Assembly (NCBI GenBank): GCA_028276365.1 | Contig: JAPYWL010000005.1 | Coordinates: 1-56,927, forward strand | Origin: Deltaproteobacteria bacterium | GTDB taxonomy: Bacteria > DRYD01 | Reading direction: 5' to 3' | DNA: 56,927 nt | Part shown: positions 4,848 through 44,800 of the stretch, piece by piece | How the letters are laid out: the number at the start of each line of letters is the position of its first letter | Position numbering within the stretch: position 1 is the stretch's first letter | Program-made: the position numbers and the translations under genes | The notes under the pieces: generated by a model | Databases searched by the model: none | Told to the model about the DNA's origin: nothing | The model's input: the letters and a program-made list of their open reading frames with translations, nothing else

Positions 4848-4880
4848 TTTAACAAAAACGATATATCTAAAAGCAAATAA

Positions 4881-4913
4881 GGTAATTTTCAGAATCTACT
4901 ATTCTATATTACC
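4881..4913. terminator. Hairpin between convergent genes
   Basis: GGTAAT at 4881-4886 pairs with ATTACC at 4908-4913, and AGAAT at 4891-4895 pairs with ATTCT at 4901-4905. The hairpin lies exactly where the DUF503 gene and the minus-strand 554-residue gene converge, and overlaps the stop codon of the latter. Neither side has a convincing T tract, so it may be a weak bidirectional terminator or incidental. Confidence 0.3.
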
Positions 4914-6605: not shown

Positions 6606-6770
6606 ACTTTTACATAAGCATAGCTTTTTAGGTATCAGTAATACAACATAAAGCTTTTTAATAGCTTAACTTTAAAACACTCTAAATAAATTTATTGGTG
6701 CCTAATTTTCTATATGTCATAAACTTAATACCTATTAAGCCTTTACCGAGCCATACCTAAAGCTAAACTT
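6606..6770 (-). repeat. Hairpin-rich intergenic element, copy A (inverted-repeat arms)
   Basis: This spacer between gapA and the helical gene has two long complementary arms. AAGCATAGCTTTTTAGGTAT (6616-6635) pairs with ATACCTAAAGCTAAACTT (6753-6770) at 16 of 18 positions with a 2-nt bulge. The loop holds a perfect palindrome CTTAATACCTATTAAG (6724-6739) and a smaller hairpin AAGCT...AGCTT (6651-6667). The left arm and its flank (6606-6644) match 34021-34059 in opposite orientation at 33 of 39 positions, so it is a dispersed repeat. The right arm overlaps the last codons of gapA. It could be a structured RNA or the remains of a small inverted-repeat element. Confidence 0.55.
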
Positions 6771-7773: not shown

Positions 7774-7957
7774 TATACCTTTAACACCCCCTTTTAAATA
7801 AAATTAACTTTATTCCCCAATAATAACTTATTTTTAACTAATCTTTTATTCTAATATAAAATTAACAAAAAAAAAATAAAATCCTTTTTATTTTTAATTT
7901 TAAATTACCTTCAAAAAATAAAGGGAAAAACAGGATTTATATAAAAATATTGAATAA

Positions 7958-11585: not shown

Positions 11586-11754
11586 CCTGAAATTAAAGTA
11601 AATTATAAAATTATTGTTTACATGTATAGTGTTTTTTTAGATTATTTGTTAAAACAGGAATAAATTAATTCTATTCTGAAAACCTATCAATTTTTCTTTA
11701 GTAATTACAAAGCCAGAAAAACTACCCTATTTCACATTAACAGTTTTTTTTTAC

Positions 11755-11848
11755 TATGAAGGATTTTTTTATTTTTTTTACCTAATTATTATATTGGAGT
11801 AAATATACATCCTTCCTTAGTTTAGCTTACACATAGGGGAATTGAAAG
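11755..11848. repeat. Dispersed ~90-bp intergenic repeat, copy 1 (contains a CRISPR-repeat-like segment)
   Basis: Read on the minus strand, 11848 to 11755 matches 19819-19909 on the plus strand. The first 28 bases (CTTTCAATTCC...GTAAGCTAAA) agree at 25 of 28, then comes a diverged 11-13 base stretch, then 35 bases (TATATTTACT...TTAGGTAAAAAAA) agree at about 33. In plus-strand orientation the segment 11819-11848 reads AGTTTAGCTTACAC...GGGGAATTGAAAG, resembling type I-B CRISPR repeats that end in ATTGAAAC, with the A+T-rich conserved part placed where a leader would be. There is only one such unit and no spacer series. It sits between the D-aminoacylase stop and the DUF1624 gene. Confidence 0.65.
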
Positions 11849-11850
11849 TT

Positions 11851-13416
11851 TTAAAATCTTAAAACTTTCCCGTTTCTATTTAGAATCTGATTATCTTTTA
11901 GAGTTAATTTTCCATTAACAAAAACGTATTTAATTCCATCAGGGTATTTATGAGGATCTAAGTAAGTTGAATTATCTTTTAATTCATTTAAATCAAAGAT
12001 AACAATATCAGCAAAATAATTTTTTTCAATACTTCCTCTTTTATAGATATTAAATTTTTTAGCAGGGAATTCAGATAACTTATATATAGCTTCCTTTAGA
12101 GATAAAACTTGCTTTTGTTTAACGTATTTATTTATAAATTTAACAAAGGTTCCATAAGTTCTAGGGTGAGGCCAAGACAAAGAATTAGGACATCTTATTG
12201 CACTATCACTAGCAACCATTACATAAGGCTTAGTCGCTATATAATCCACTTCTTCTTCATCCATTAAGAAATAAATAGCTCCTAAATCATAACCCTCTGT
12301 TTTTAATAGATAAATAACAGTTTTAGCAGGGGTTAATCCTAAATCCTTAGAAATTTGATCTATAGTTAATCCAACATATTTTAATAATTTAGGGTTATAA
12401 GCTTCAGATATAATAATTTTATCCCAAGGGGTGTGATAATTATTTTCTATATCTATTTCTACTTGTTCCTCATTTTCAGAAATATTAGCTATAATATCTT
12501 CAATAGATCCTTCTAAGTATTTATCAGGTAATACTTGAGATAATCCAGTATTAGAAGCTTCATAGGGATATTGATCAGCATCAATATTAATCCCTTCTTT
12601 TTTAGCATTTTCAATTAAATAACAAGCATCCCTTGCTTTACCTTTTGCTGAAGAAGCTGCTTTTAAATGAGAAATCTCAAAATTAACACCGCTCTCTCTT
12701 GAAATAGTTATGCTCTCTTGAATAGCTTCAAGTAATTTAGAGCTTTCAGAACGCATATGATTAGTTAAAATTTTACCCTTAGATTTAACTACTTTTGCTA
12801 ATTCTATTAACTCTTTAGTATCAGAAAATTTTCCAGGTATATAAATTAATCCTAAAGATAATCCAATAGCACCATCATCTAATACTTTTGATAACTCATT
12901 TTTAAAAAGCTCAATATCATTTTCACTAAGTTTAATATTATTATACCCAAATAATCCTCCTCTAATTTGTCCATGTCCCGCTAAATATCCATAATTAATA
13001 GCTATATCTAAAGATTCAATATAATCTAAATATTCCTTTAAAGATCCCCATTTTAATTCATTGATATTGTAGCTTTGTGCTTCAGTTTTTATTGAATTTA
13101 AAGTATTAGGATATAAAGGACTCACAGCGAACCCACAATTACCCGAAATAATAGTAGTAACCCCTTGATACAAAGCACTACAAGCATCAGGATTAGCTAT
13201 TATAGTTAAATCACTATGACTATGGACATCTATAAACCCAGGTGATACATATAAATTATTAGCATCTATAACTTCAAAGCCATTTACTCTTAAATTATCT
13301 ATATCTTCTTGATTTAGATTATCATAATTTATTTCAGCTATAACCTCATTATCTATAAATATATTTCCCTTTTTCTCCTTTTGAATTATATAACCATTTA
13401 TTATAGCATATTTCAT
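11851..13416 (-). CDS. N-acyl-D-amino-acid deacylase (D-aminoacylase-like amidohydrolase)
   Basis: This 521-residue amidohydrolase-superfamily enzyme is expected to release a D-amino acid and a carboxylate from N-acyl-D-amino acids in the cytoplasm. Visible motifs are the metal-binding FIDVHSHSDL near residue 62, the family-typical ISGNCGFAVSP near 90, LGLIYIPG, the metal-ligand-containing NHMRSES near 220, EISHLKAA near 248, QYPYEAS, and ASDSAIRCPN...HPRTYGTF near 410-427. The last part, with LYKLSEFPAKKF and GSIEKNYFADIVIFD, is the usual small beta domain. The ATG directly follows the TAA of the 103-residue gene, so the two are translationally coupled. D-amino acids from peptidoglycan turnover are a plausible substrate source, but this is inference. 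Confidence 0.88.
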   Translation of the reverse strand: MKYAIINGYIIQKEKKGNIFIDNEVIAEINYDNLNQEDIDNLRVNGFEVIDANNLYVSPGFIDVHSHSDLTIIANPDACSALYQGVTTIISGNCGFAVSPLYPNTLNSIKTEAQSYNINELKWGSLKEYLDYIESLDIAINYGYLAGHGQIRGGLFGYNNIKLSENDIELFKNELSKVLDDGAIGLSLGLIYIPGKFSDTKELIELAKVVKSKGKILTNHMRSESSKLLEAIQESITISRESGVNFEISHLKAASSAKGKARDACYLIENAKKEGINIDADQYPYEASNTGLSQVLPDKYLEGSIEDIIANISENEEQVEIDIENNYHTPWDKIIISEAYNPKLLKYVGLTIDQISKDLGLTPAKTVIYLLKTEGYDLGAIYFLMDEEEVDYIATKPYVMVASDSAIRCPNSLSWPHPRTYGTFVKFINKYVKQKQVLSLKEAIYKLSEFPAKKFNIYKRGSIEKNYFADIVIFDLNELKDNSTYLDPHKYPDGIKYVFVNGKLTLKDNQILNRNGKVLRF

Positions 13417-18533: not shown

Positions 18534-18566
18534 AATAAAGAATCTAAAACTAAAGGGAGGTTGAAA

Positions 18567-19802
18567 ATGAATAACTTATTAAGTGAATTAGATCTAAAAT
18601 TAAAATTCTACTCACTAAATGATTTAGTTTATGTAATACCAGATAATTCAATACCTACTACTTATTTAAGTATTTACTTTTTAAGTGGAAGTTACTTAGA
18701 AAGTCTTGGTAAATTGGGATTAAATTATTTAGTGTTTAAGACTTTAATTAGATCTACTAAAAAATTCAAATATGAAGATTTAAATTACTATTTAGAAAAA
18801 TATTCTATAAGTGTAAGTAGTTTTGCAGGATATTTTAATAGTGGAATTTCATTATCTTTTCCGTTTTATAATTATAAAGAAGCTTTATATGCTCTAAATT
18901 CTATAATATACGATTATATTTTTAGAAATTCCGATTTAGAAGAGGTAAAAAGAGATTCAATTAATAGTATAAAAATTTTAAAAGATGACATATATTCATA
19001 TTTAACTGCTTATGCAGATAAAGCTTTCTATAGTTCATTTTTAGCTAACGATGTTAAAGGAAATATAAAGAATATAAAAAAATTTACAAGAAAAGACTTA
19101 ATTAATTGGTATGAGAATTTAATTAATTCAAAAGATATAAAAAAAATAATAATAATTTCAGGATATACTACTCCTAGTTTTGAGCAACAAGTATTTAGAA
19201 ATTTTAAAAAGATTTTAAATAAAGATAACAATTATATTAGTAAAATGAGTGATTTTGATATAGTTCCTAAGAGAATAACTCATAGATTAAATAAAGTAGA
19301 AACAGGAATAGCTATAATTTATCCTGCTCCTACTTATAATTTAGATTTCTTTAGCTATAAAGTTATTTCATCTATATTAGGTTCTATGTCAGGTAGATTA
19401 TTTGTAAATATAAGAGAAAAACAAGAATTAGCTTATGCTATTAGCTCATATTATGAACCTCTACCTATAAAAGCTGGTAGCATTAAATTCACAATGCTAA
19501 CCTCAAAAGAAAATAAAAATAAAGCCTTAAATGCCTTATTAAATGAAGTTAATGATATAATAAAAAACGGTTTTAAAGAAGATGAAATAATTACCGCTAA
19601 AAATTATATTATAGGTAATTACATTGATAGCTTTATAAAACGATCATTTAAAGCTTCTTTATTAGCTAAATCTATTTTATTCAATATACCTTTAGAATTT
19701 ACAAATAACTACATAAATTATATAAACTCAGTTAGTAAAGATACTATAAATAGTAAATTAGATTATTTTAAAAATAAACCAGGTATTTTTATCGTCTTTT
19801 AA
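18567..19802 (+). CDS. M16-family peptidase paralogue lacking the zinc motif
   Basis: The protein has two M16 (pitrilysin/processing peptidase) halves: an N-terminal STTYLSIYFLSGSYLESLGKLGLNYLVFKTL and a C-terminal GIAIIYPAPTYN...GSMSGRLFVNIREKQELAYAISSYYEP near residue 275. In active M16 enzymes the first segment carries HxxEH; here the matching place reads NYLVFK, so zinc binding and catalysis are lost. Bacterial M16 proteins often work as pairs of one active and one inactive subunit, and this looks like the inactive one; no active partner is in the window. The frame opens at TTG 18561, directly after GGGAGG, so the start is ATG 18567, six bases after that site. Cytoplasmic, no signal peptide. 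Confidence 0.85.
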   Translation: MNNLLSELDLKLKFYSLNDLVYVIPDNSIPTTYLSIYFLSGSYLESLGKLGLNYLVFKTLIRSTKKFKYEDLNYYLEKYSISVSSFAGYFNSGISLSFPFYNYKEALYALNSIIYDYIFRNSDLEEVKRDSINSIKILKDDIYSYLTAYADKAFYSSFLANDVKGNIKNIKKFTRKDLINWYENLINSKDIKKIIIISGYTTPSFEQQVFRNFKKILNKDNNYISKMSDFDIVPKRITHRLNKVETGIAIIYPAPTYNLDFFSYKVISSILGSMSGRLFVNIREKQELAYAISSYYEPLPIKAGSIKFTMLTSKENKNKALNALLNEVNDIIKNGFKEDEIITAKNYIIGNYIDSFIKRSFKASLLAKSILFNIPLEFTNNYINYINSVSKDTINSKLDYFKNKPGIFIVF

Positions 19803-19818
19803 TTCCCCTACTTTCTTT

Positions 19819-19909
19819 CTTTCAATTCCTCTATAGGTAAGCTAAATAGTTATGCTATATATTTACTTCAATATAACAATTAGGTAAAAAAATAAAAAAT
19901 CCTTTATAT
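19819..19909. repeat. Dispersed ~90-bp intergenic repeat, copy 2 (contains a CRISPR-repeat-like segment)
   Basis: This is the second copy of the element at 11755-11848, inverted relative to it. On the minus strand 19847-19819 reads TTTAGCTTACCTATAGAGG then AATTGAAAG, closer than copy 1 to common type I-B CRISPR repeats. A partial echo, GTAGGGGAATTAAAAG, follows at once on the minus strand inside the last codons of the M16 gene. The A+T-rich part (19855-19909) is the conserved leader-like half. It is one unit only and fills the gap between the M16 gene and the laccase-domain gene. Confidence 0.65.
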
Positions 19910-19937
19910 AAATTTTTAATAAAAAAAACCACTTGAT

Positions 19938-20728
19938 GTGAAAGCTTTAATTCAAATTAAAATGAATGATTTTTATAATTTTTATAGTTTTAAAATTTAT
20001 TCAAGTAATATATACGATTTAAACCAAAAGGAAATAATAAATAGAATTAAATTAGTTAAAAGCAAATTTAACAAACTAAACGTAATATTACCAATTCAAA
20101 AACATACCAATAAAATACTAAAATTATCTCAATTATTAAAAATTCGAAATTTAGATGAAGGTTTTGATGGGATATATTTTGATAATAAAGATATTTATTT
20201 ATTAAAGCATTTTGCTTTAGGGGTTTTAACTGCAGACTGCTTGCCTATTGTTATATTAATCTTTAAAGAATCTTTACGAAATATGAACAATTTAGCTAAC
20301 TTAGAAAATTCATCATTGGTAGCATATTACATGCAGGTTGGAAAGGAATCTTTAATAATATAATTTACAATTTCTTTAATATAGTAAATAATTATTTGAA
20401 AAATGAAAGTAATATTAAAGTAATTGCGTATATAGGTCCTTGTATAAGAGATTGTTGTTATGAAGTTAAAGAAGATTTTATTAAAAAACTAAATATTAAC
20501 TCTAATTTTTACTATTTTAAAGATAAAAAAATATATTTAAATTTACCATTTATTGTTAAATATCAAATAAAGCAGTATTTTTTAAACCTTAAAAATACAA
20601 TAAAATTGGAAAATACAATAGAATTGGATTTAATAGATGTTAATAAATGTACATACTGTAGTAATAATTATTTTTCATATAGAAAAGGTAATAAAGAAGA
20701 AAGAAATATAACCATTTTATCAATTTAA
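19938..20728 (+). pseudogene. pgeF: Laccase-domain (YfiH/PgeF) gene split by one frameshift
   Basis: Two adjoining frames together encode a purine-nucleoside phosphorylase/peptidoglycan-editing (YfiH, DUF152) protein. The first frame (from GTG 19938) gives LPIQKHTNKI, EGFDGIYFD and LGVLTADCLPIVI, then stops at 20363. The second frame, entered near 20324-20330, gives HAGWKGIFNNI, then AYIGPCIRDCCYEVKEDF and the closing DVNKCTYCSNNYFSYRKGN. The metal-site residues (TADC, HAGW, GPCI) are all present, but one base is missing between VAY and HAGW; an extra T in TATTACAT would read VAYLHAGW. With that base the protein would be 263 residues, a normal length. It may be a true pseudogene or a single-base sequence error. 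The second part alone has an ATG at 20396 but no HAGW motif. Confidence 0.85.
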
Positions 20729-24598: not shown

Positions 24599-24663
24599 AT
24601 TATAATAATCATTTTTTAAAAAAGTAAAATAAAAAATAATAAAAATTAACACTTTTGTTACAT
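24599..24663 (-). promoter_or_regulatory. Promoter of the EEP nuclease gene with an upstream motif shared with fliF
   Basis: On the minus strand a perfect TATAAT lies at 24604-24599, 33 bases before the ATG at 24566. A weak TTACTT at 24627-24622 is 17 bases upstream. Further out, 24646-24663 reads TTAACACTTTTGTTACAT on the plus strand. The same 18 bases, with one difference, stand at 36318-36335 before fliF, about 41-44 bases from its TATAAT. A shared activator site or UP-like element is a reasonable inference. The motif also lies in the divergent upstream region of the coiled-coil gene at 24776. Confidence 0.5.
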
Positions 24664-31876: not shown

Positions 31877-33499
31877 CTATCTTTGATTACTAATAAAAAT
31901 ATGCAAAACCTTAGGTAAAAAGTCAGCATTACTAAATGAAGCAGAAGTCATTAAAGAAGTATCATATTTAAATTGACTACTATTACCATTAACTTGAAGA
32001 TCACCGTCTATAGGATCACTTGTCCAAGCTGCACCATATAATGTAGGATTACCGTTGAAAACTAAGTCAGGAGCGCATAAAATAGCATTAACTACAGGAG
32101 TCCCACTAGAAGTAGCTGCTTGGGTACTGGCATATATCCTAAAAGCTCCTGGCTTAGATAACAAAGTATTATTATTAGTATTAGTAGTTCTTCCATCTGT
32201 ATCTACATTATTAACAGTTACATTACCACCTACAGAAAAACTGCCGTTTATATATAAATTAACTCCTGGTCTATTACCTAAAAACCTAAAATTAGTAACA
32301 TTATTACCTACAATATCAAAACTTGTTCTAAAATAAAAATCAGGATTCAAAACTGTTGTTGTTCCACTATTTCCTAAGTTCATATCAGATTTATTGGCTT
32401 GTATAAAAAGGGGTTGAGCATAAGAAGGAGCAGAAGCAGGATCTGTATAAATATTTCCAAAATAATCAAACTTAGCAGTTAATCCATAAGTATTTTGAAT
32501 ATAGTTATAAACAGCAAGGTAATCATTATAAGTACCTTCCCCAGATTTAGGTAACCTAACTTGAAAAACTAAACTATTATCCGTTTTACTAAAATCTCCT
32601 GATAAATAATAATTTCCTGGCTTTGTTAAGTAAATAGTACTACTATTATTAGAAGTATAAACTACGTTAGGCGAAAGTATTCTATTAACAGGCATGCTAA
32701 CTGCAGAATTACTACTATAAAAATCAGTAGGGAAAGGATCTACATAATCTCTTAAGTACTCAGGAGGTGGAGTATTAGAGATAATCTTATCGTTATTATT
32801 ATTAACCTTATTTCTTATAGTAGATGATAAGGAATTACTATATATAACAGCATCTGCAGAGCCACTACCTGTTATACTTTTAGCCCAAACCAAACTTAAA
32901 GCTTTATTTTTAATTATATTTAATAAATCTAAGTTTTTAGCTTGAACAGAATTATTTTGTTTATCAACATCCCAATTCAAAGTATTAAGTGAAACAACTT
33001 TTGGCATTATATTAGGATCATCTGTACCAAAAAATCCTGCATTATTATTTACTCCCACATTAATAGAATCAGTAGCAAAAAATAGGAAATCATTTAACCT
33101 CCATTCCCACACTTTAACAACAGATTTAAGAGAAACTATATTATTCCCCCTACTAACTGTTATACTAACATTCCTTAATCCCTTAACATTTCTATTAGGA
33201 ATTGGAGTAACCATAATAGATACATTTACATTATTCAAAGGAGAAAAGTTTTCACCAGTATAACTAGGGTTTAAATATAACTCAGCTAAGGTTTTATTAA
33301 AAGCACTCTTAGCAACATTAACTAATATATAATTTCTTTGAAAGCTTTGGGCCCCTAAATTACCATTATACCCTCTAAGTGCTAATAACAAAATCATAAA
33401 CAAAATAGTAAGAAAAATTAACACTATAATTAAAACAATAGCCTTCTGATATTTAATGTTTACACCTCTTACTTTTATCTCCTTTTTATTTATTTCCAT
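31877..33499 (-). CDS. Large PilX-like pilus-associated protein
   Basis: About 540 residues. The N-terminus (YQKAIVLIIVLIFLTILFMILLLAL) is a PilX-type stalk helix without a G|xxxxE prepilin site, followed by SFQRNYILVNVAKSAFNKTLAEL. The long remainder is Asn/Ser/Thr-rich and beta-repetitive (NVTVNNVDTDGRTTN, VNAILCAPDLVFNGNPTLYGAAWTSD), probably a surface-exposed beta domain. This is much longer than typical PilX (~170-200 residues). The frame opens at 33523, but TTAGGGGG precedes the ATG at 33499, which is the better start. A TATAAT at 33550-33545 is a candidate -10 box. It is the first gene of the pilin cluster. Confidence 0.65.
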   Translation of the reverse strand: MEINKKEIKVRGVNIKYQKAIVLIIVLIFLTILFMILLLALRGYNGNLGAQSFQRNYILVNVAKSAFNKTLAELYLNPSYTGENFSPLNNVNVSIMVTPIPNRNVKGLRNVSITVSRGNNIVSLKSVVKVWEWRLNDFLFFATDSINVGVNNNAGFFGTDDPNIMPKVVSLNTLNWDVDKQNNSVQAKNLDLLNIIKNKALSLVWAKSITGSGSADAVIYSNSLSSTIRNKVNNNNDKIISNTPPPEYLRDYVDPFPTDFYSSNSAVSMPVNRILSPNVVYTSNNSSTIYLTKPGNYYLSGDFSKTDNSLVFQVRLPKSGEGTYNDYLAVYNYIQNTYGLTAKFDYFGNIYTDPASAPSYAQPLFIQANKSDMNLGNSGTTTVLNPDFYFRTSFDIVGNNVTNFRFLGNRPGVNLYINGSFSVGGNVTVNNVDTDGRTTNTNNNTLLSKPGAFRIYASTQAATSSGTPVVNAILCAPDLVFNGNPTLYGAAWTSDPIDGDLQVNGNSSQFKYDTSLMTSASFSNADFLPKVLHIFISNQR

Positions 33500-33964
33500 A
33501 ATATTCCCCCTAACTTTAGACATTTTATTACTACCCTATATATAATTATAATTTTTTTTTTCAAAAAAACAAGCGTTTTAAATAGCTTTTATTGTAAAAT
33601 TTTTGTAAATTTTATTAACATAAATTTAAAATCTTACTTTTATATTAAAAACCCTAAAAAGAGTTTATTTTTTTTAGTTAATTTTTAAATTACAGCAAAT
33701 ATAATATACTAGTTTAACAAAAAGCCGCAAAAAGTATCGATTTTCTATAAAGTGGAGATGAATTGCTAAAAACTTAATAGATATTTGGAACAGAATAAAT
33801 ACTATAGAGCATAGAGAATTAGATAGTAATAAGCAGTCTGTTGTTTTATCACCTTTATTAAACTATAGGAATAGAAAATAAAAGAAAGGATTTCAATAGG
33901 ATTTTGACTTGTATTGTGTATGGGAGAGTTTATAAAAGGGATGAAAATATAAACTTATACTAAG

Positions 33965-34078
33965 TAAGGTTGGGTACGCTTTAAAACTAAGCCTTTAAAG
34001 CATGGTCTGATGGCTGGACCGTATTCCTTATACCTAAAAAGCTAAACTTATGTAAAGCTCACTTATCCCCTTAGGAGA
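33965..34078 (+). other. Candidate structured RNA / dispersed element, copy B
   Basis: The gap 33500-34132 has no gene I can support; most of it is plain A+T-rich DNA apart from the pilin promoter, but this part is richer in G+C. On the plus strand TAAGG (33965-33969) and TAC (33975-33977) can pair with CCTTA (34026-34030) and GTA (34021-34023). They enclose two hairpins, GCTTTA...TAAAGC (33978-34001) and GGTC...GACC (34004-34020): a three-way junction. The segment 34021-34059 matches 6606-6644 inverted (33 of 39). A C-rich/G-rich stretch follows in both copies. The strand is uncertain; no known riboswitch, tmRNA, RNase P or SRP signature was found. Confidence 0.4.
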
Positions 34079-36267: not shown

Positions 36268-36335
36268 ATTATATATTTTAAACAAAAATTAAAAAATCCC
36301 CTAAAATATAAAAAAAATTAACACTTTTTTTACAT
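36268..36335 (-). promoter_or_regulatory. fliF promoter with shared upstream motif
   Basis: A perfect TATAAT lies at 36273-36268 on the minus strand, 28 bases before the GTG start. About 44 bases further upstream, plus-strand 36318-36335 reads TTAACACTTTTTTTACAT, one mismatch from the motif before the EEP nuclease gene. Both copies are also preceded by five A. No -35 box close to consensus is visible, which fits a promoter that needs an activator. Confidence 0.5.
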
Positions 36336-41820: not shown

Positions 41821-44800
41821 CTATTTTAATCTTTCATTAATAGTATTTAACTTTGCTTTAACAATACCTATCATTAATCCCTCCTTCCCATAAATTACAA
41901 CCACATTATCCTTAAAAACCCAACTAAAAATAATCCCCTTTCCTAATTCTTCATAATAATTATTTATATCCTTCATAAAACTAAATAACTCAGATATATA
42001 TTTTAAATTCAATTCTTTAAATATACTATTACTAACAAAATAGCTACCCATATTATTTTCTTTAATAATAGATATTCCATCAATCTTAGGATTATTTATA
42101 ATATCAAAAATTTCTTTTGAAATATTACTTAAATTTTCATCTACATTAAATTTTATTAACTCATTTTGTTCAGAAACTAATTCCCCCTGTTTAATACTTT
42201 TATTTAACTCACTCTTTTCTAATTCTTGTATATCGGTAACTGCAGCTTCCTGTGTTAAATTTTCTTCTATTAAGAATTCCTGAACCCAATTCATCTCACT
42301 TATTTCTTTAAATTCATTAGTTTCAATTTTTAATTCTTCTGCCTTTATTTCCTTTTGATCCTTATTATCCAAACTATCTAAATTTATGTCATCCAAATTA
42401 ATACTATCTAAATTTATATCATCTAAATTTATATCATCTAAATTAATATTATCTAAATTTATACTATCTAAATTAATATTATCCAAATTTATATTATCTA
42501 AATCTAAAGAACTAATATCAAGATTAAGATTTATATCAACATCAACTTTTTGAACTTCCTCAAAAATTAATTCATCCCTTATTTTTAAAACTTCTTTATC
42601 CTTTTCACTTTCTAATCTCTCTTTCTCAAATAAATCATCTTCTTTATAATCTAACTTTACTTCCTCTGATTTAATCTCTTTTTCTTCTTTCTTAAATAAA
42701 CCACTATCACTACTACTAATATTTAATTCATTAATATTTAATTCTATTTGTTTATCTACATTTTCTAAACTTTCTAAATTATTTAAACTATCTTTCAATT
42801 CTATTTCTTTATCATTTAAATATTTTGAATCATTAATTTCTACTAATTGTAATTCATTTTGTAATTGATTTTCTAAATCACTACTTAAAAAAGTATCTAA
42901 TTTTTTTTGTGATTCTTGTTTAATGCTTTCTTCTAATAAATCCTTATTCAAATTCTCAAAAACTTCATTACTTTCTTTTGAATCCTTAACCACTTCTTCT
43001 TTATTTACAATTTCAGTGTTATTAATTAGATCTTCTAATTCTAAATTTACCTCAATATTCTCAATAGCTTTTAAATTGTCCAAAGGAGATAAGTTATCTA
43101 TAGAAGATAAATTATCTAAAGAAGATAAGTTATCCAAAATAGGTAAATTATCTAAAGAAGGAAAACTATTTAACAATTCTAAATCTTCTTTCTTTTCTGC
43201 TAAATCTCTATTTTCAAATATATTTTCTAAATTACTACTAATAAAACTCCTATCTTCTAAATTTTCTACTAATTGTCCTTGAGTAATAAAATCTTTTTCT
43301 AAATCAATCTCTCTTTGAAAATCGGTATTACCTAAATTTTCTTGAATTTCATTTTCTTTTAAAGCACCTATTTCATTATCTAAAATACTTTTATTTTCTA
43401 ATAATTCCTTATTATCAATATCATAAGAGCTATCAAAAATAGATACTTTATTAAAATCATTTAATTCTTTCATCTCTAATTCCCTAGTTTCTAGTTCTTT
43501 TAATAAATCAATTTCTTTAAAAGAATCAGCCTCAATAATAACTTCCTGCTTGATATCAAAATTTTTAGTAATATTAATGCCAAGATCTATATTATCTACT
43601 TTTTGAACTATATCAGATTCCTTTTCTAATTCATTAATTAGACTAAAATCTATATCTATCGGAAGTTTTACCCCAAGACGTTCCTCTTTTGTCTTAGTTT
43701 GTTCCTCTTTTACTTCAATTGCTTCTTCTTTTGTTTCTATTTGTTCCTCTTTTACTTCAATTGCTTCTTCTTTTATTTCTATTTGCTCCTCTTTTACTTC
43801 TATTGGTTCTTCTTTTATTTCTATTTGTTCCTCTTTTACTTCAATTGCTTCTTCTTTTGTTTCTATTTGTTCCTCTTTTACTTCAATTGCTTCTTCTTTT
43901 ATTTCTATTTGTTCCTCTTTTACTTCAATTGCTTCTTCTTTTATTTCTATTTGTTCCTCTTTTATTTCAATTTGTTCTTCTTTTGCTTCAATTTGTTCCT
44001 CTTTTATTTCAATTTGTTCTTCTTTTGCTTCAATTTGTTCCTCTTTTATTTCAATTTGTTCCTCTTTTACTTCTATTGGTTCTTCTTTTGTTTCTATTTG
44101 TTCCTCTTTTACCTCTATTGGTTCTTCTTTTGCTTGTACTTGTTCTTCTTTTATTTCTTTTGGCAATACTTCTGCAATTTGGATCTCAGATATTTCTTGC
44201 TTTACTTCAGTATAAATCTTAGTTAATAAATCTTTCACTTTTTCAATAAAAACATTGAAATTAAGCAATTCATCATAAATAAAATTAATAAGAATATAAT
44301 TATTAAAGACATCCAGATTATTATTATTAAAAACCAGTTGTTTAAAATGAGAATCTAAAGAAGCAAAAATTTTCTCATATATTCTTTTTACTTTATTAAT
44401 TTTTTTAGGATCCTCAATATAGTATTTTTTCTCTTTAAAATGATTAATTATATCCTTAGGATTATCCAAAACAAGCTCAATTTGATTTTTCTTCTTATCA
44501 TCTTCAAAAGGGATTAATTCATTAACATTAGATAATAACCTTTCTTTCAGTTCATTTTTAGTTTTAACCAATTGCTCTATATCTTTATTTATATTTTCTA
44601 AAATATAATTTATATCCTGAAGATCTATTAGCTTCAATAAATTAAGTTCTTGTTCATTTAAATTATAAAAAAACGATTCTTTATTTAGATTATATTTTTT
44701 ATAAAGTTCTAAAAGATTTTTAAATTTAGATAAATTATTACTAAATAATTCCAACTGATTTTCATTAAATATAGCATAAGATACATCATTAATAAAACTA

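Follow-up and report, generated by a model that had tools for sequence, protein, structure and literature searches.

Two inverted repeats in the window (the whole stretch of 56,927 nucleotides that was analysed) are solitary units in which one CRISPR repeat is joined to the ~100 bases of a type I-B array leader that lie next to it; they are probably mobile-like and mostly inert. A preliminary description had placed them at 11755-11848 and 19819-19909, and both copies are indeed present there. They align end to end apart from a core of 11-13 bases, whose divergence had already been noticed and is real, and which corresponds to the final leader stretch before the repeat. The extent of ~90 bp given at first holds for the part that was seen, yet each unit continues for ~35-40 bases further upstream (AGAAAAACTACCCTATTTCACATTAACAG at site 1), and the two strands had to be exchanged, as reading from leader to repeat puts site 1 on the plus and site 2 on the minus strand. 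The following features can be assigned:

11715..11848, plus strand: solitary leader-repeat unit of site 1, running from leader to repeat
11715..11819, plus strand: leader-derived part of unit 1, its final 12-14 bases being the diverged core
11820..11848, plus strand: single CRISPR repeat of unit 1, GTTTAGCTTACACATAGGGGAATTGAAAG, which differs once from the array repeat
11851..13416, minus strand: gene A of site 1, an amidohydrolase, with its stop codon 2 bases off the repeat end
18561..19802, plus strand: gene A of site 2, an M16-type peptidase, convergent with the unit
19796..19808, minus strand: trailing half-repeat of site 2, GGGGAATTAAAAG, inside which lies the present stop codon of gene A
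19819..19847, minus strand: single CRISPR repeat of unit 2
19819..19952, minus strand: solitary leader-repeat unit of site 2, with a diverged left end and therefore an approximate boundary

Exactly two instances of the pattern TATATTTACTYCAATATAAYAATTAGGTAAA, taken from the conserved leader block, were counted in the window, whereas 100 shuffles gave none. When 19815-19925 was used as a query it matched 11750-11848 with 82% identity (E = 1.8e-19), and the similarity search returned no whole-unit match in the window beyond both copies. The neighbours in the window are amidohydrolase, M16 peptidase and laccase-type genes.

Several other repeated stretches were seen in the window. Two of them, at 7845-7888 and 33664-33703, are 78-83% like the A+T-rich leader block and are perhaps decayed copies or chance similarities in A+T-rich DNA. 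An inverted pair of 36 bases at 6609-6644 and 34021-34056 (89% alike, GTATTACTGATACCTAAAAAGCTATGCTTATGTAAA) has no relation to the CRISPR unit. At three intergenic places (24618-24660, 33390-33432 and 36290-36332) the sequence AAAATTAACACTTTTxTTA stands before an A+T-rich stretch and is possibly a shared promoter motif, and a long tandem array with a 21-base period at 43540-44266 probably consists of coding repeats.

Arrays, cas genes and solitary copies in the genome

The genome to which the window belongs is a fragmented, mixed-strain assembly of 1.59 Mb in 124 contigs, 87% complete. Its arrays carry the repeat GTTTAGCTTACCCATAGGGGAATTGAAAG with spacers of about 36-41 bases and comprise 32 repeats on C84, 39 on C72 and 9 on C59, in addition to short, degenerate arrays on C66 and C70. 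On C84 a complete type I-B set of cas genes is found (cas8b, cas7, cas5, cas3, cas4, cas6, cas2, cas1). The preliminary description had likened the 28-base block to a type I-B repeat and had proposed that it be compared with the array repeats of the genome; in this comparison the sequences were identical or near-identical, and the block is the repeat of the true arrays beside the type I-B cas locus of C84. Likewise, the A+T-rich block, for which a leader had been suggested, equals the leader-proximal ~100 bases of the array leaders, the leader part of the units being homologous to the leader of the arrays that lie beside the cas genes.

None of the 79 array spacers had a full match outside the arrays in the sequence that was examined, which gives no sign of self-targeting; one spacer has a 27-base, 93% match on C68, near an array leader. 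This contig (L068, 585-1316) also carries a second cas6, close to that of C84 and directly upstream of another array leader, with the other cas genes absent, and represents either a partly lost second CRISPR locus or that of another strain. The Cas1 protein of C84 (L061 2378-3547) has an acidic N-terminal insertion of roughly 55 residues (about 25-80) relative to the family models. The array trailers of C72 (L063 2561-2640) and C70b (L066) consist of tandem half-repeats of 13-15 bases, GGGGATTGAAAGGAA and similar. In the short decayed array at C70 14386-14413 (L066, minus strand) the leader, ending in CCCCCAGGAAAATTAG, runs directly into the repeat; the leader stretch present in the solitary units has been cleanly deleted there, the deletion ending at the leader-repeat junction.

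A total of 24 full leader-repeat matches was found in the genome, two of which are joined to arrays (C84 and C59), two consist of a leader truncated by the end of its contig (C71 and C68) and 20 are solitary. The solitary copies occupy 19 places, as one locus is represented twice, by contigs C83 and C16 of different strains, which agree to 90-95% over 8 kb. They have one repeat and in some cases a trailing half-repeat; neither a spacer nor a second full repeat is present at any of them, so that none can be called a CRISPR array. Their mean pairwise identity is 88% with a range of 73-98%, and given this range the spread of the units may be old rather than continuing. A common short leader form, never seen at the arrays, is shared by 13 of the copies, and the unit on C124 combines an array-like leader end with a perfect repeat and is still without spacers.

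Among the options raised at the outset, that of orphan leader-repeat units agrees with these about 20 solitary copies of array repeat and leader, and that of solitary repeats targeted by a Cas complex found no support. An ordinary dispersed repeat had also been considered, to be recognized by many copies of the full unit in a genome with no array of this repeat; the many full copies exist, the absence of such an array does not hold. The element is both CRISPR-derived and a dispersed repeat.

Strain differences were seen at two places. The site 1 unit is found in two strains, and between C16 (L009) and the window (11715-11848, L021) the left part is near-identical; the leader core differs strongly and C16 adds a 15-base half-repeat, as if there had been an exchange with another copy. 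C16 could not be used as an empty-site strain in the search for target duplications, as it carries the site 1 unit too. In the second strain a stop codon is followed by a lone repeat (C16 7757-7786, L069), where the window has a short different stretch at about 4866-4897, CTAAAAGCAAATAAGGTAATTTTCAG, that resembles both unit ends; the two may be remnants that decayed in different ways.

Empty sites in the sister species and origin from array leaders

A sister species of the same genus (G001; its protein for the site 1 gene is 84% identical) was used for comparison. Both intergenic regions corresponding to the window sites lack the unit there, the adjoining gene being conserved (2/2), and for nine further solitary sites, searched as one joined query, all neighbour genes were present and none had a unit. 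The four array sites examined are empty as well (4/4), and the sister species has its own arrays elsewhere. Because all 11 solitary and 4 array sites are empty in this species while the adjoining gene is conserved, the units are insertions gained since the two species split. No family of solitary units was found in the sister species, where a single decayed leader-like copy was seen besides the arrays of its own; in the relative G005 an array with a single leader was present. The genome collection, which may omit this genome or very near ones, contained no exact match.

Nor was there an exact match to the repeat in viral contigs, and spread by viruses was rejected on this ground. The same result bears on the suggestion that the units are solitary repeats of viral type acting as RNA anti-CRISPRs (Racrs), for which single CRISPR-like repeats matching the host's own system are typical (PMC10651486). 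However, the neighbours that were read are ordinary chromosomal genes, carriage by a virus, plasmid or prophage was not observed, and the repeat comes with a leader attached, which makes this the least probable of the explanations considered.

The array leaders carry a hairpin, CTGTCGAT..ATCGACAG, and an array leader of the sister species has one as well (GTCGATC..GATCGAC), together with the upstream ATTGACAAAAGTCAAT motif, as in the array leaders of the genome studied here. Most solitary units start sharply on their left side inside the loop of this hairpin, and upstream of the cut the units resemble the array leader no more than shuffled sequence does. The one clear exception is the unit on C72, which keeps the long leader; the one on C87 is marginal by score, with the hairpin region visible by eye. 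Because the hairpin is also present in the leader of the sister species, whereas the units start inside its loop, the solitary form is derived from leaders and not ancestral to them.

The main rival explanation is that arrays have collapsed, recombination between repeats having removed the spacers and left the leader, the degenerate last repeat and the trailer, in the manner of a solo LTR. The sequence GGGGAATTAAAAGAAGGGGAATTGAAAG closes several units, and tandem half-repeats of the same kind stand at the ends of true arrays; in addition, the long upstream leader is retained wholly or in part by the C72 and C87 units, and array trailers also abut stop codons. Collapse would however require about 19 more arrays in a genome of 1.6 Mb, every one of them emptied, no spacer remnant is seen at the units, and the sharp left cut inside the leader that is common to most of them is left unexplained. 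We therefore regard it as rather unlikely and prefer the view that the leader end and its repeat were dispersed as a unit.

Position behind stop codons and signs of mobility

For 14 of the 19 places the distance of the repeat end from the stop codon of a gene that is read towards the unit is -22 to +25 bases, a position for which random intergenic insertion expects 14% (binomial 6e-9, with a null built from one window and simple ORF calls). Between tandem genes the units are antisense in 14 of 14 clear cases, as judged by reading of the neighbourhoods. The gene beside the C54 copy continues into the repeat and has its stop codon within it, and the array trailers on C72, C66 and C70 likewise end at convergent stop codons.

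Such a strongly fixed position, with the repeat end pointing into the 3' end of a gene, might suggest functional antisense or crRNA-like regulators, in which the unit would be transcribed, Cas6 would cut the repeat (the crRNA-like 5' handle being ATTGAAAG) and the RNA that follows would be antisense to the 3' end of the neighbour. Yet the units lack the upstream leader, which is likely to hold the promoter, a second repeat is absent, and the same genes do without units in the sister species. A consensus promoter scan gave nothing convincing either and did not detect a leader promoter, and we consider such a function very improbable. The location directly behind stop codons and the single orientation in tandem gene pairs would also suit a role as 3'-UTR or terminator-like element for the neighbour gene, in the direction in which that gene is read; however, no terminator-like hairpin is found on either strand at site 1 and the consensus folding shows no covariation, so that this explanation is highly improbable. 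A structured RNA in general was rejected, as no Rfam family was found at the units and the folding lacked covariation on either strand.

The dispersed units resemble an element of the MITE type in their many copies, their defined ends and the empty sites in a relative. Their ends show a weak similarity by eye only (AATTxCCCTAT), with no clear terminal inverted repeat. No target-site duplication was seen by eye at the junctions inspected, the intergenic DNA and empty sites of the sister species being too diverged for certainty. Mobility of the IS200/IS605 type was rejected, as a search of the genome confined to Y1 transposases found none, and so was copying through RNA, as no reverse transcriptase was found.

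A possible mechanism and comparison with known systems

The units may have behaved as a small, passive and mobile-like element whose spread was assisted by some activity. The repeat edge is the known cut site of the Cas1-Cas2 integrase, and the last leader bases before the repeat are where integration is controlled. Cas1-Cas2 is a candidate for the mover solely because the right end of the unit is this repeat edge. Most units are probably dead as CRISPR, because they have no upstream leader, where the promoter is likely to lie, and in many of them the leader end by the repeat, where spacers would insert, has been lost or altered. Judging from the known action of Cas6, copies in sense orientation would place a Cas6 cleavage site in an mRNA and would be lost, leaving the antisense copies behind stop codons. 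A unit with a full leader may occasionally seed a new array, as the true arrays are also situated at lineage-specific sites behind stop codons.

An extension of this view, which we offer tentatively and hold to be possible rather than probable, is that the leader-repeat unit itself is a mobile element in the genus, which enters behind stop codons and faces them with its repeat end, perhaps aided by Cas1-Cas2, and that units with a full leader grow into arrays. If true, it would be one way in which new CRISPR loci originate; little is known about how arrays come to occupy new genomic positions. With units and arrays at sites that are empty in a sister species, and with strict rules of position and orientation, the birth and spread of CRISPR loci become testable in one genus. 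The results suggest that in this bacterium CRISPR loci are able to move or to seed themselves, and that the sites where CRISPR repeats are permissible may be limited because Cas6 would cut host mRNA.

No description of dispersed leader-repeat families was found in the open-access literature. The units share with the leader-repeat junction of a type I-B array the repeat and the leader-proximal sequence, which equal those of the genome's own arrays, but they have no spacers, one repeat and mostly no long leader, and they lie far from cas genes at about 19 places. MITE-like intergenic repeats such as ERIC, BOX and RUP are dispersed, non-coding and about 100-150 bases long. Size, dispersal and intergenic place are thus alike, whereas the units described here are derived from a CRISPR leader, and clear terminal inverted repeats or target duplications were not found. 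SRUs and Racrs of viruses and plasmids consist of a single CRISPR-like repeat, often behind a promoter (PMC10651486, PMC8616872). A single repeat without an array is common to both; the units described here are chromosomal, multicopy and leader-bearing. In creA of CreTA, degenerate CRISPR repeats outside arrays are found, two of them around a guide, which work with a toxin (PMC8501985). In contrast, our units have no guide between the repeat and the half-repeat. The LR-SR units of Methanocaldococcus jannaschii comprise many dispersed leader copies, some of them followed by very few repeats. The units of the present genome differ from these in that the dispersed part is short (~130 bases with one repeat) and comes from a leader end with a sharp cut, in that they were inserted since the species split, and in that they are placed strictly antisense behind stop codons.
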